From Roseivivax sp. THAF197b (GTDB lineage: Bacteria > Pseudomonadota > Alphaproteobacteria > Rhodobacterales > Rhodobacteraceae), in NCBI RefSeq assembly GCF_009363255.1, contig NZ_CP045318.1, forward strand, positions 844,001-908,000: 64,000 bases of DNA, given 5' to 3'. A model generated the notes under the pieces. It saw only the letters and a program-made list of their open reading frames with translations, made no database searches and had not been told where the DNA came from. Position 1 is the stretch's first letter; each line of letters starts with the position of its first letter. Both the position numbers and the translations under genes were made by a program. This document shows positions 8,832-58,329 of the stretch, piece by piece.

Positions 8832-10304
8832 TTGACCGCCCACGTTTCCGTCCGCAGTCGCGATATGCGTCCTGCCCTTCGTCTGTTCTGGCTGGCCAGC
8901 CTGTCGATGATCCTCATCCTCGCGCAATCCGTCTTCTCGAGCGCGCAGGGCAATGCCCCGCGCAGCTTTGCGGACCTTGCGGACCGGATCAGCCCCTCGG
9001 TCGTCAACATCACCACCGAGACCACGGTTGCCGGTCGCACCGGGCCGCAGGGGATCGTGCCCGAAGGCTCACCGTTCGAGGATTTCTTCCGGGAGTTCCA
9101 GGATCGCAACGGGCAGGGCGACCGTCCGCGCCGGTCTTCGGCACTGGGCTCTGGTTTCGTGATCTCGGAGGATGGCTATGTCGTCACCAACAACCACGTC
9201 ATCGAAGGCGCGGACGAGATCCTGATCGAGTTCTTCTCGGGCGAGGAGCTGCGCGCGGAAGTGGTCGGCACCGATCCCAACACCGATATCGCGCTCCTGA
9301 AGGTCGAGGCTGATACGGCGCTGCCCTTCGTCAGCTTCGGCGACAGCGACACCGCGCGCGTCGGCGACTGGGTCATGGCGATGGGCAACCCGCTGGGGCA
9401 GGGCTTCTCGGTCTCCGCGGGCATTGTCTCCGCGCGCAACCGGGCGCTGTCGGGCACCTATGACGATTACATCCAGACCGATGCCGCCATCAATCGCGGC
9501 AATTCGGGCGGGCCGCTCTTCAACATGGATGGTGAGGTGATCGGCGTGAACACCGCGATCCTGTCGCCCACCGGTGGCTCCATCGGGATCGGCTTCTCGA
9601 TGGCCTCGAACGTGGTGACCCGCGTCGTCGACCAGTTGCAGGAATTCGGGGAAACCCGGCGCGGCTGGCTGGGTGTGCGGATCCAGGACGTGACCGAGGA
9701 CGTGGCAGAGGCGATGGGCCTTGCCTCGACCAATGGCGCGCTCGTCACCGATGTGCCGGAAGGCCCCGCCGCCGAGGCCGGCATGATGTCGGGCGATGTC
9801 ATCATGAAGTTCGATGGCCGCGACGTGGTCGACACGCGTGGGCTCGTGCGTCAGGTCGGCAACACCGCTGTCGGCAAAGCCGTGCGCGTGGTCGTGAACC
9901 GCGACGGCGCGACCGAGACGCTGATGGTCACGCTTGGCCGCCGCGAAGAAGCGGAAAGCGCCGAGGCGGAGACACCCGAGGCGGAGACGCCGGAAACCCC
10001 GTCCTCGGCCGATCTGCTGGGGCTGAGCCTGACCCTGCCCAATGCCGAGCTGGCAGAGGAATTCAGCTTCGACGCCGACATGACGGGTCTTGTGGTCACG
10101 TCGGTCGACGAATCCTCGGAAGCCTTTGAGAAGGGCATGCGGGCGGGCGACGTCATCACCGAAGCGGGCCGCGAGACGGTGGCCGAGATCGCGGATCTCG
10201 AAGATCGGATCGCCGCCGCGAAAGAGGCGGGCCGCAAGTCGATCCTGCTTCTGGTGCGCCGCTCCGGCGATCCCCGTTTCGTGGCGCTGACGCTCGAAGA
10301 GTAA
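8832..10304 (+). CDS. degP: Do/DegP-family periplasmic serine endoprotease
   Basis: Envelope protease/chaperone of the HtrA family. A signal sequence (LFWLASLSMILILAQSVFSSAQG, residues ~18-40) is followed by a trypsin-like domain with catalytic His122 (NNHVIEGA), Asp152 (NTDIALLKV) and Ser225 (GNSGGPLF), then two PDZ domains (GWLGVRIQDV... and a C-terminal one from about residue 390). A Glu/Ala/Pro-rich linker (EAETPEAETPETPSS) joins the PDZ domains. The start is TTG at 8832, supported by AAGGA ten bases upstream; an ATG at 8865 has no ribosome binding site. It follows the HflKC genes, giving a local cluster for membrane and periplasmic quality control. Confidence 0.95.
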   Translation: MTAHVSVRSRDMRPALRLFWLASLSMILILAQSVFSSAQGNAPRSFADLADRISPSVVNITTETTVAGRTGPQGIVPEGSPFEDFFREFQDRNGQGDRPRRSSALGSGFVISEDGYVVTNNHVIEGADEILIEFFSGEELRAEVVGTDPNTDIALLKVEADTALPFVSFGDSDTARVGDWVMAMGNPLGQGFSVSAGIVSARNRALSGTYDDYIQTDAAINRGNSGGPLFNMDGEVIGVNTAILSPTGGSIGIGFSMASNVVTRVVDQLQEFGETRRGWLGVRIQDVTEDVAEAMGLASTNGALVTDVPEGPAAEAGMMSGDVIMKFDGRDVVDTRGLVRQVGNTAVGKAVRVVVNRDGATETLMVTLGRREEAESAEAETPEAETPETPSSADLLGLSLTLPNAELAEEFSFDADMTGLVVTSVDESSEAFEKGMRAGDVITEAGRETVAEIADLEDRIAAAKEAGRKSILLLVRRSGDPRFVALTLEE

Positions 10305-10481: not shown

Positions 10482-11051
10482 CTAGCCCGCCGGGGCCTGC
10501 CTGTCCGGCGTGGCGCCATCGACTTCCACCGCGACAAGTCCCAGCTCCCGCGCGGTGTTGAGGGCAAGTTTATCGCTGTCGAGACCGCGCTCCCGCTGGA
10601 AGGCTGCGATGGCCGCTCGTGTCGGCGGGTCGAGCCGCTCTGTCACCGCGCCTCCGTAATAGCCCCGCGCCACCAACGCGCGCTGCAGCGTGGCGATGAA
10701 ATCGGGCGTGAAGGTGGGCGGGCAGGGCGCGGGGAAGCGGACCTCCTCGCGCGGGCGGACAAGTTTCGGCACGGTCGCGTTACGGTAGATCGGCGCACGG
10801 ACAAGCGTGCCGTCCTCGGCGCGGACCTCCGGGACCACCAGAACCTGACCGGGGACCTGTTCGTAGACGGCGGGCGTGCGCTCCGTCGCGTAGCAGCCGC
10901 CGGCGGGGTCGGGTCGGGAATCGTCGTCGCCAAGGCCCATCGTGTTGAAATCGGGCCGCGCGCCGCCGCCCGTCTCAGGCCCCACGGGGCTGCACGCCAT
11001 GGCCATGGCAAGACCGCCGACACAGACGGTAAGGACCGCGATGCGGGTCAT
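10482..11051 (-). CDS. Putative lipoprotein with C-terminal peptidoglycan-binding domain
   Basis: A 189-residue exported protein. The N-terminus is a short signal peptide ending AMAMAC, with Cys20 as the likely lipidated residue. The lipobox has Ala at -3, so lipidation is probable rather than certain. The middle is unstructured-looking (GGGARPDFNTMG) with a conserved-looking YRNATVPKLVRPREEVRFP segment. The C-terminal ~60 residues match a PG_binding_1 fold (FIATLQRALVARGYYGGAVTE...TRAAIAAFQRERGL). It probably anchors to or senses the cell wall. No enzymatic domain is visible. It is convergent with degP. Confidence 0.7.
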   Translation of the reverse strand: MTRIAVLTVCVGGLAMAMACSPVGPETGGGARPDFNTMGLGDDDSRPDPAGGCYATERTPAVYEQVPGQVLVVPEVRAEDGTLVRAPIYRNATVPKLVRPREEVRFPAPCPPTFTPDFIATLQRALVARGYYGGAVTERLDPPTRAAIAAFQRERGLDSDKLALNTARELGLVAVEVDGATPDRQAPAG

Positions 11052-11092: not shown

Positions 11093-11494
11093 TTAGCCTG
11101 TTTCAGCCTTCTGCGAAAGCGCCTCGGGCGCGGCCAGCAAACGGTCGAGCATGGGCGAGATATCCTCGATCTCCTCGGCGATCACGTGGGTGACGCTGTT
11201 GTCGCGCTGCAGCCGTCCGGTCACCCGCAACATGCGGCCCGCGATCACCGCGCGGCGAAAGCGTTCGTAGATGCCACGCCAGACGATGACGTTCACGACG
11301 CCGGTCTCGTCCTCCAGCGTCAGGAAGATCACCCCCTTCGCGGTGCCCGGCCGCTGGCGCAGGATCACGAGCCCTGCCACGGCCACCCGCGCGCCCTGCG
11401 GCGGCAGGCCCGTCCGGTCCGCGGTCAGACAGGAGGGCGGGCGCGGCCAATCGACCGAGCCCTGGAATCTGGATGTGCTTGAGATCACCTGCAT
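11093..11494 (-). pseudogene. dnaE2: C-terminal OB-fold remnant of error-prone DNA polymerase DnaE2 (ImuC)
   Basis: From ARVAVAGLVILRQRPGTAKG through VIFLTLEDETGVVNVIVW to GRLQRDNSVTHVIAE and the following DISPML, this reading frame is a close match to the OB-fold segment near the C-terminus of DnaE2, the alpha-type polymerase of the LexA-controlled imuA-imuB-dnaE2 mutagenesis cassette. Only about 90 of the ~1,050 residues remain. The PHP, polymerase and helix-hairpin-helix parts and the basic C-terminal tail typical of the family are absent. About 35 unrecognised codons precede the match. A perfect SOS box lies just upstream of the possible ATG at 11494, leaving no room for a ribosome binding site from that start. 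Most likely a deletion relic; a small SOS-induced OB protein is the alternative. Confidence 0.72.
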
Positions 11495-11496
11495 TA

Positions 11497-11511
11497 GAAC
11501 AAATATAGAAC
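11497..11511 (-). promoter_or_regulatory. LexA (SOS) box, GTTC-N7-GTTC
   Basis: On the plus strand the site reads GAAC-AAATATA-GAAC, so GTTC-TATATTT-GTTC on the minus strand. This is an exact match to the alphaproteobacterial LexA operator (direct repeat of GTTC spaced by seven bases). It lies directly upstream of the dnaE2 remnant, as expected for the promoter of an imu cassette. Confidence 0.85.
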
Positions 11512-11590
11512 AAATGGGTCCGGATGCAATCCGCGACCTCATAACCCTTTATCCTGCCGCGGCCCTCGCCTATGTCCCACGGAAACCTAA

Positions 11591-11932
<342 letters not shown>

Positions 11933-57692: not shown

Positions 57693-58298
57693 TCAGACCG
57701 GAACAGGGCTACTGTGCAGCGTCGAGGCCTCGGCGCGCAGCGTCCAGGCGGCGGGCGGGGCCATGCGGGCGCGCAGCCGCGTCACGCGCCAGCGGTCGCA
57801 GCCCGGGGCGTGATCCGGCTCGCTTTGCCACCGGCTTTCGATGCCTGCGGCCCCGCCCGCACCCGGTGTCAGGAGAAGCCCCGTGGGCCGGGCCTCGCGC
57901 GTGGTGCCCGCCTCCGCGGCCAGTTGCAGCCGCCGCACCGGCGTGAGGCCCGGCGCTTCGGTCAGGTCTGCCACGGCCAGCGCCACGGCGCCCGCGCGCA
58001 AGGTTTCCTCGAGCGCCCAGAGGCGGTCGATCTCGCGCGGGGCGGCAATGAAGAGAAGCCGCGCGGGATCGCAGATGCCGTGCATGCCGCAGGGATTGAG
58101 CCCCGAGCCGCCGGGCGGGGCGATCCAGATCACCGAGCCCTGGGTCCGGCCTGCAACCTCCAGCGCGAAGCGCAGCCGGGCGCGCCCGCAGATTTCATGC
58201 ACGCGGCCTTCGCGCAGGGAAATCTCCCCGGTCAGCGCGATGGCGGGCGCGGCCTTCTGCGGCGCGCGTGTCAGAAGCGTGTCGACCGTCTCTACCAT
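57693..58298 (-). CDS. imuA: ImuA-like SOS mutagenesis accessory protein
   Basis: A 201-residue RecA/SulA-superfamily protein. The segments GRVHEICGRARLRFALEVAG, VIWIAPPGGSGLNPCGMHG, DPARLLFIAAPREIDRLWAL and LTPVRRLQLAAEAG match alphaproteobacterial ImuA in order and length. In typical genomes ImuA works with ImuB and DnaE2 in damage-induced mutagenesis and is thought to contact RecA. Here it stands alone: the following 350 bases contain no imuB and the next gene is metG. A perfect LexA box lies 16 bases before its start, so SOS induction is expected. AGGA is just before the ATG. Confidence 0.85.
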   Translation of the reverse strand: MVETVDTLLTRAPQKAAPAIALTGEISLREGRVHEICGRARLRFALEVAGRTQGSVIWIAPPGGSGLNPCGMHGICDPARLLFIAAPREIDRLWALEETLRAGAVALAVADLTEAPGLTPVRRLQLAAEAGTTREARPTGLLLTPGAGGAAGIESRWQSEPDHAPGCDRWRVTRLRARMAPPAAWTLRAEASTLHSSPVPV

Positions 58299-58314: not shown

Positions 58315-58329
58315 GTTCGCTATTTGTTC
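58315..58329. promoter_or_regulatory. LexA (SOS) box, GTTC-N7-GTTC
   Basis: GTTC-GCTATTT-GTTC is an exact match to the alphaproteobacterial LexA operator. It lies 16 bases upstream of imuA (minus strand) and 110 bases upstream of modA (plus strand), so it most likely controls imuA. Confidence 0.88.

Follow-up and report, generated by a model that had tools for sequence, protein, structure and literature searches.

The window analysed here, a stretch of 64,000 nucleotides of the Roseivivax sp. THAF197b genome (NZ_CP045318.1, positions 844,001 to 908,000), carries on its minus strand a small gene (11093..11494) encoding a 133-residue protein with an OB core at about residues 35–117. The ATG of this gene lies 2 nt past a perfect GTTC-N7-GTTC LexA operator (GTTCTATATTTGTTC, 11497..11511, minus strand), in agreement with an initial annotation of this DNA that had placed such an operator directly before the reading frame. 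A 2Fe-2S ferredoxin gene (11609..11932, plus strand; Pfam Fer2, 5.6e-14) is the divergent neighbour and served as a syntenic anchor. Downstream lies a gene for a small protein with a peptidoglycan-binding domain (10482..11051, minus strand; PF01471, 2.3e-9), followed by a second flanking anchor, a serine protease gene (8832..10304, plus strand) whose product, from its sequence, we take to be of the Deg/HtrA type.

The encoded protein matched positions 943–1040 of the 1047-position DnaE2 model NF004225/PRK05672 (E 7.8e-32) as well as the Pfam OB-fold family PF01336 (E 1.7e-13), which bears out the initial view that the frame is essentially the OB domain of DnaE2, with the polymerase body absent from it, and places the segment in DnaE2's OB family rather than a different one. 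The best Pol III alpha model reached only E 4.2e-8, weaker than the DnaE2 model, and the Pfam SSB model scored 12.7 bits against a cut-off of 26 (E 0.14), too low for membership of that family. An AlphaFold2 (AF2) model built from a 51-sequence alignment contained an OB barrel, with a pLDDT of 87 (an earlier model from 14 sequences was poor, at 54.6), and its best Foldseek matches were OB-bearing structures such as AspRS, RPA, CST and ExoVII. A WPRPP-like N-terminal motif was kept in all 14 aligned standalone OB proteins and was modelled at fair to high confidence. Comparison of nine genomes of the genus (36 pairs) gave a median pN/pS of 0.17 for the OB core, with 0.175 for the neighbouring ferredoxin, and higher values of 0.75 and 0.56 for the arms of the protein, which are freer than the core. 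The OB core is under purifying selection. The segment had been suggested to be either recently decayed or under selection; the second option held, and the first did not, as the frame is intact and we found neither the frame damage nor the relaxed selection expected of a pseudogene.

The DnaE2 profile search of the source genome returned three places, namely the window frame, a DnaE2 body and a weaker full-length match, which was taken as DnaE1; no second, full DnaE2 was found elsewhere in the genome by this search. The body (C1:3329650-3332517) matched profile positions 7–938 with 1215 bits and nothing beyond 938, showing that the parts missing from the window frame are encoded elsewhere, about 2.5 Mb away in contig coordinates, so that the two products are not covalently joined. 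The body stops 19 residues past the last conserved HPVALLR motif; full-length relatives continue into the OB domain and then, in nearly all examined, into a tail (HPR..SRDFH) that is largely gone in the split system. All split bodies stop shortly before the expected OB start, and no OB-like sequence at E < 0.05 was detected downstream of the stop in any of 30. Their tails comprise 6–81 residues after the last conserved motif, and the N-terminal arms of the 14 aligned OB proteins are short; judged by typical intein half lengths, the break seems to leave too little spare sequence on either side for intein halves. PDIDVDF and K(V/I)D(V/I)L, which we assume to be the motifs with the catalytic aspartates of the polymerase, were both present in 29 of the 30 split bodies. 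The body in one two-contig genome (L063, G021) begins its match only at profile position 88, its PHP front seemingly missing. Solved fragments of E. coli alpha, about 910–927 residues long, align with the DnaE2 body. According to the accessible part of PMC3666897, the alpha fragment 1–917, also without an OB domain, was assayed as a polymerase and polymerises in vitro, and the accessible part of PMC12926913 describes modelled DnaE2–ImuB contacts that use the PHP and HhH regions. Because alpha 1–917 was assayed as a polymerase and the PHP and HhH regions are kept, the OB-less body plausibly polymerises and joins ImuB, and by analogy could still work and assemble.

Within the window, the exact GTTC-N7-GTTC pattern occurs twice where chance would on average give 1.15, and the box before the OB gene is therefore not significant on its own. 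Across relatives, 41 of 43 standalone OB loci had an exact LexA box at or shortly before the start; in 25 of these 41 the box begins 17 bases ahead of the start codon. A collection of named genomes, some of which are shared with the former set, gave an exact box in 65 of 70 OB loci without an adjoining body and in none of 10 fused loci. Alignment of OB promoters (59 of 67 kept, eight having failed the criteria of the script) revealed conserved TTG/TGG at box-18 to -16 and TATnTT at box+4. These correspond in the window to a predicted -35 element TTGCAT (11524..11529, minus strand), 16 bp upstream of a predicted -10 element TATATT (11502..11507, minus strand) that lies inside the operator; since TATnTT is conserved at box+4, the operator covers the -10 element. 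The start codon falls at box+17 in 39 of the 59 promoters and elsewhere within box+12 to +22 in 15, and the OB-gene mRNA is predicted to be leaderless, with its transcript start near the ATG and LexA, judging from the operator sequence, presumably bound at the promoter.

The split bodies are also boxed. With at most one mismatch allowed, 27 of 30 had a LexA box in the 300 bases before the gene, and three had none in that interval; the DnaE2 body of the source genome has a box of its own. These boxes mostly read GAAC-N7-GAA(C/T), and 24 of the 27 sit 25–50 bases before the start. Twelve bodies have an exact box; that of L062, at -151, may be due to chance. The same scan of full-length dnaE2 genes returned a box in 6 of 21, at scattered positions. 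The small OB gene probably belongs to the SOS regulon of the Roseobacter/Rhodobacter group. A small SOS-induced OB protein had been one of the two initial alternatives, and as a prediction it is supported by the conserved box, by the purifying selection and by the synteny described below.

Other genes of the mutagenesis pathway also carry boxes in this genome. An ImuA-like gene lies in the window (57693..58298, minus strand; NF033429 ImuA_translesion, E 7.5e-11, 42 bits against a cut-off of 150), where it stands by itself behind the window's second exact box, which is GTTCGCTATTTGTTC on the plus strand (58315..58329) and GAACAAATAGCGAAC as the ImuA-like gene reads it. Relatives of this gene at about 51–52% identity occur in other split genomes (L264, L265, L267 and L269), where an exact box stands upstream too. 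The imuB gene (C1:693601-695277) has an exact LexA box at -32, and all 18 genomes that have the long ImuB type (17 split ones plus G083) show an exact box ahead of imuB. With imuB at about 694 kb, the OB gene at 855 kb, the imuA-like gene at 902 kb and the dnaE2 body at 3331 kb of C1, the classical cassette is scattered over four places in the source genome; among 30 split-body regions, 5 have imuB only a few kb away from the body. The ImuB of the 17 split genomes and G083 aligned nearly end to end with the ImuB of the source genome (L059:1447-3126). The ImuB of full-DnaE2 genomes, and also of G115 and G122, aligned in two pieces that skip about residues 160–215, an apparent insertion of some 60 residues in the source-genome type relative to that of full-DnaE2 genomes.

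We surveyed the Rhodobacteraceae with one genome per genus (149 genomes), using a DnaE2-model search and an OB-protein search, and classified the genomes by hand from match lists that extended down to about 600 bits for the DnaE2 model. Nine were set aside as contig-edge, fragmentary or ambiguous cases (G029, G110, G123, G127, G130, G174, G093, G100 and G150), among which G093, G100 and G150 had a standalone-like OB without a complete body, and G130 and G174 a partial body without an OB. Among the matches listed, the 140 classified genomes comprised 56 with both an OB-less body and a standalone OB, two with the body only, one with the OB only and 81 with neither, such that 56 of the 59 classified genomes with either part have both. 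Full-length DnaE2 was present, among the same matches, in 66 surveyed genomes, one of which (G067) also has the split pair. In one body-only genome (G076) neither an OB nor the ferredoxin orthologue was found, and in the other (G096) the contig extends just 222 bases beyond the ferredoxin gene on its upstream side and contains no OB there. The OB-only genome (G083; seven contigs, rated 100% complete) has an intact OB preceded by an exact LexA box and no DnaE2 body, a state that looks real; either the body was lost recently or the OB is used independently (locus L108). Four genomes (G067, G316, G319 and G320) have a full-length DnaE2 plus the split pair and would be natural settings for complementation.

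A search of 25 named genomes, 21 of them chosen for a standalone OB, found a body ending near position 938 in 20 of these 21, including Ruegeria marina, R. atlantica, Roseovarius dicentrarchi, Planktomarina sp., Mameliella alba, Roseivivax halodurans, two Rhodovulum and Gemmobacter straminiformis. The exception, Thalassobacter stenotrophicus, has a standalone OB, a split-type body in fragments and a full DnaE2. Three of the other four named genomes have a full DnaE2; the fourth, Mangrovicoccus, which was left unclassed, has its OB inside a 1085-residue frame along with scattered DnaE2 fragments. Outside the family, no split was found among the DnaE2 over the cut-off (74 of 153 genomes of the class sampled). 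Two apparent splits there were rejected, as G242 has a full gene and G310 a contig end. A further apparent split (G017) was also rejected, its coordinates on C2 (6-287 and 214651-217569 of 217585) implying a full-length gene cut by the contig ends. Two plasmids of Kozakia baliensis carry a DnaE2-like OB (NZ_CP014676.1 13963-14256 and NZ_CP014683.1 30752-31045), annotated as a small OB-fold protein or unannotated, which is possibly a separate OB outside the family.

The position of the OB gene is conserved: the standalone OB adjoins the ferredoxin gene in 51 of 52 loci (a count that includes one genome twice), G115 being the exception, and the peptidoglycan-binding and protease neighbours are present in many of these loci, not all. 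Comparison with relatives had been proposed initially, together with the expectation that a full dnaE2 at this site would undo the reading. None of 28 ferredoxin sites examined in genomes without the split pair had one: 27 had no OB beside the ferredoxin gene, and the remaining one (G010) had a decayed remnant covering residues 82–134, without a box; this genome has two full DnaE2 but lacks a split body. Two standalone OBs lie away from the ferredoxin site (L119, on G115:C42, and L217, from Amaricoccus sp.), and the G115 gene has a long inserted arm and retains part of the old DnaE2 C-terminal tail.

In a tree of 51 DnaE2 cores, inferred by a quick method with SH-aLRT support only, the 30 split bodies formed one side of a single branch (SH-aLRT 99), with the G115 body branching first among them. 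The OB tree (108 columns) was weak, with two changes, and compatible with a single origin, and the suggestion of a single split therefore comes from the body tree rather than from the OB tree. When 30 chosen genomes were placed on a DnaE1 tree, those with a split, a full or no DnaE2 were scattered; the split label required eight changes, at least six of them forced by supported branches. These trees suggest one origin of the split and many losses. Among six independent pairs of genomes differing in the body, the OB went along in five, was unchanged in one and went the opposite way in none (sign test p 0.0625, the floor for five differing pairs). Because the two genes are unlinked, such joint retention and loss points to a joint function.

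The OB of the early-branching genome G115 retains the tail HPRDQSKLLF. An RHPR tail motif is kept in 3 of 30 bodies, a number that none of 5000 shuffles reached, for a motif picked after looking. The G115 tail, the RHPR in bodies and the lack of OB-like DNA behind the bodies fit a duplication with complementary loss, and the split may accordingly have arisen through duplication of dnaE2 followed by loss of complementary parts.

We also compared evolutionary distances in 19 genomes, eight of 27 having been dropped where the protease gene was not found. OB and body distances correlated at 0.93, and the partial correlation that takes ferredoxin and protease into account was 0.80 (0 of 2000 permutations). 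Leaving out three fast-evolving genomes lowered this partial value to 0.42 (8 of 2000), with 0.43 for OB versus protease. Since the covariation is strong only through the three fast genomes, its specificity is weak, and we dropped it as a proof of interaction: without those genomes it is no better than that between OB and protease.

We propose, as the likely explanation, that a single split of DnaE2 produced a catalytic body and an OB subunit under SOS control, the two working jointly in trans, a reading that draws on the computed complementary architecture, co-occurrence, LexA boxes, synteny, purifying selection and catalytic motifs of the body. The body gene would keep the PHP, palm, thumb, fingers and helix-hairpin-helix, and the unlinked gene the OB domain. 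Upon DNA damage, cleavage of LexA would induce the OB gene, the dnaE2 body, imuB and the imuA-like gene together, each from its own box. The OB protein would then rejoin the body non-covalently, or be positioned on the template at the primer terminus, and provide the grip on single-stranded DNA that the fused domain gives other DnaE2, allowing translesion synthesis to work. We infer that the OB protein associates physically with the body, binds single-stranded DNA and is needed in mutagenesis. More speculatively, since the LexA promoters of body and OB are unlinked and differ in design, the OB might be a second key of this two-part polymerase, a separately switched grip that is perhaps also lent to other polymerases at stalled forks; we put this forward as a tentative possibility. 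If it were true, mutagenic synthesis would start only once both promoters had opened.

Several observations sit uneasily with a split enzyme. G083 keeps an intact, boxed OB without a DnaE2 body, Thalassobacter stenotrophicus keeps an OB although its split body is fragmentary and a full DnaE2 is present, the rate covariation is weakly specific, the sign test reaches only 0.0625, and 3 of 30 bodies lack a box at up to one mismatch. An OB that is now an independent SOS protein, binding single-stranded DNA or acting as an adaptor in the same pathway, alongside ImuB, RecA or DnaE1, and outside the DnaE2 enzyme, would account for its retention in G083 and T. stenotrophicus without an intact split body and for a covariation that becomes unspecific once the fast genomes are dropped; the confidently to fairly modelled WPRPP-like motif of the 14 aligned standalone proteins is also consistent with such a role. 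We consider this rather unlikely, as 56 of the 59 classified genomes with either part have both among the matches listed, the OB is absent or decayed in other lineages without the body, and the split bodies all end just short of where the OB would begin.

Far less probable is that the OB-less DnaE2 needs no OB and that the small gene is a tolerated, still expressed leftover. Polymerisation in vitro by E. coli alpha 1–917 without an OB (accessible part of PMC3666897) and the report of some DnaE2 that lack one (accessible part of PMC3919608) are compatible with this idea, yet a leftover would hardly show a core pN/pS of 0.17, an exact box in 41 of 43 loci and 65 of 70 named-collection loci (genomes partly shared), or retention alongside the body in 56 genera. 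We give practically no credence to a full dnaE2 that once stood here as part of an imu operon and collapsed with its promoter kept, or to a break caused by misassembly, an explanation that came from the impression of the initial annotation. The ferredoxin gene stands without an OB in 27 of 28 non-split genomes, with a remnant in the other, the arrangement recurs in tens of other assemblies, the DNA behind the stop of all 30 split bodies is free of OB-like sequence (E < 0.05), and an OB-less polymerase with its own LexA box persists elsewhere in the genome; we rejected the collapsed operon on the synteny of the 27 OB-free sites and the 30 OB-free body downstreams. Of the initial reading as a whole, the small SOS-induced OB protein is borne out as a prediction and the collapsed operon has fallen, and the other half of the split DnaE2 had been missed.

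A C-family polymerase encoded in two distant genes has a precedent in cyanobacterial DnaE, the halves of which are joined by split-intein trans-splicing. The present system resembles it in the two distant genes and differs in that the cyanobacterial protein is a trans-spliced DnaE1, whereas intein halves would seem not to fit in the short spare ends found here. Being fused to the enzyme, the OB domain of C-family polymerases has a role that is difficult to test. Here, nature has placed the OB in a separate gene with a LexA box of its own, an arrangement maintained in tens of genera, such as Ruegeria and Roseovarius, and deletion of one small gene would directly probe the contribution of the OB to damage-induced mutagenesis.

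In the literature searched, mostly outside subscription journals, no account of a DnaE2 OB encoded by a gene of its own turned up, and the accessible parts of PMC3919608, PMC9426580, PMC10883770, PMC6473078, PMC12926913, PMC6511836 and PMC3666897 do not describe a split of DnaE2; the accessible main text of PMC12926913 has no occurrence of an OB domain, OB-fold or separate gene. Standalone ImuB-C proteins are described in the accessible parts of PMC6511836 and PMC12926913 and are similar in that a mutasome domain occurs as a separate protein; there, however, it is the C-terminal part of ImuB, in other lineages, and here the OB of DnaE2. With the ImuA-ImuB-DnaE2 mutasome, in which the OB is fused, the present system shares the OB sequence, the polymerase body, the SOS boxes and the presence of ImuB; it is distinguished by a separate and unlinked OB, by genes that, in the source genome, are scattered rather than gathered in one cassette and by the loss of most of the C-terminal tail. 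There is also a likeness to the several DnaE2 sequences lacking an OB domain that are reported in the accessible part of PMC3919608, which makes no mention of a separate OB gene. The C-terminus is truncated in both, with no OB; unlike in that description, the missing OB is here a gene of its own behind a LexA box, and a DnaE2 reported as OB-lacking may still have an OB in the cell, supplied from a separate gene.
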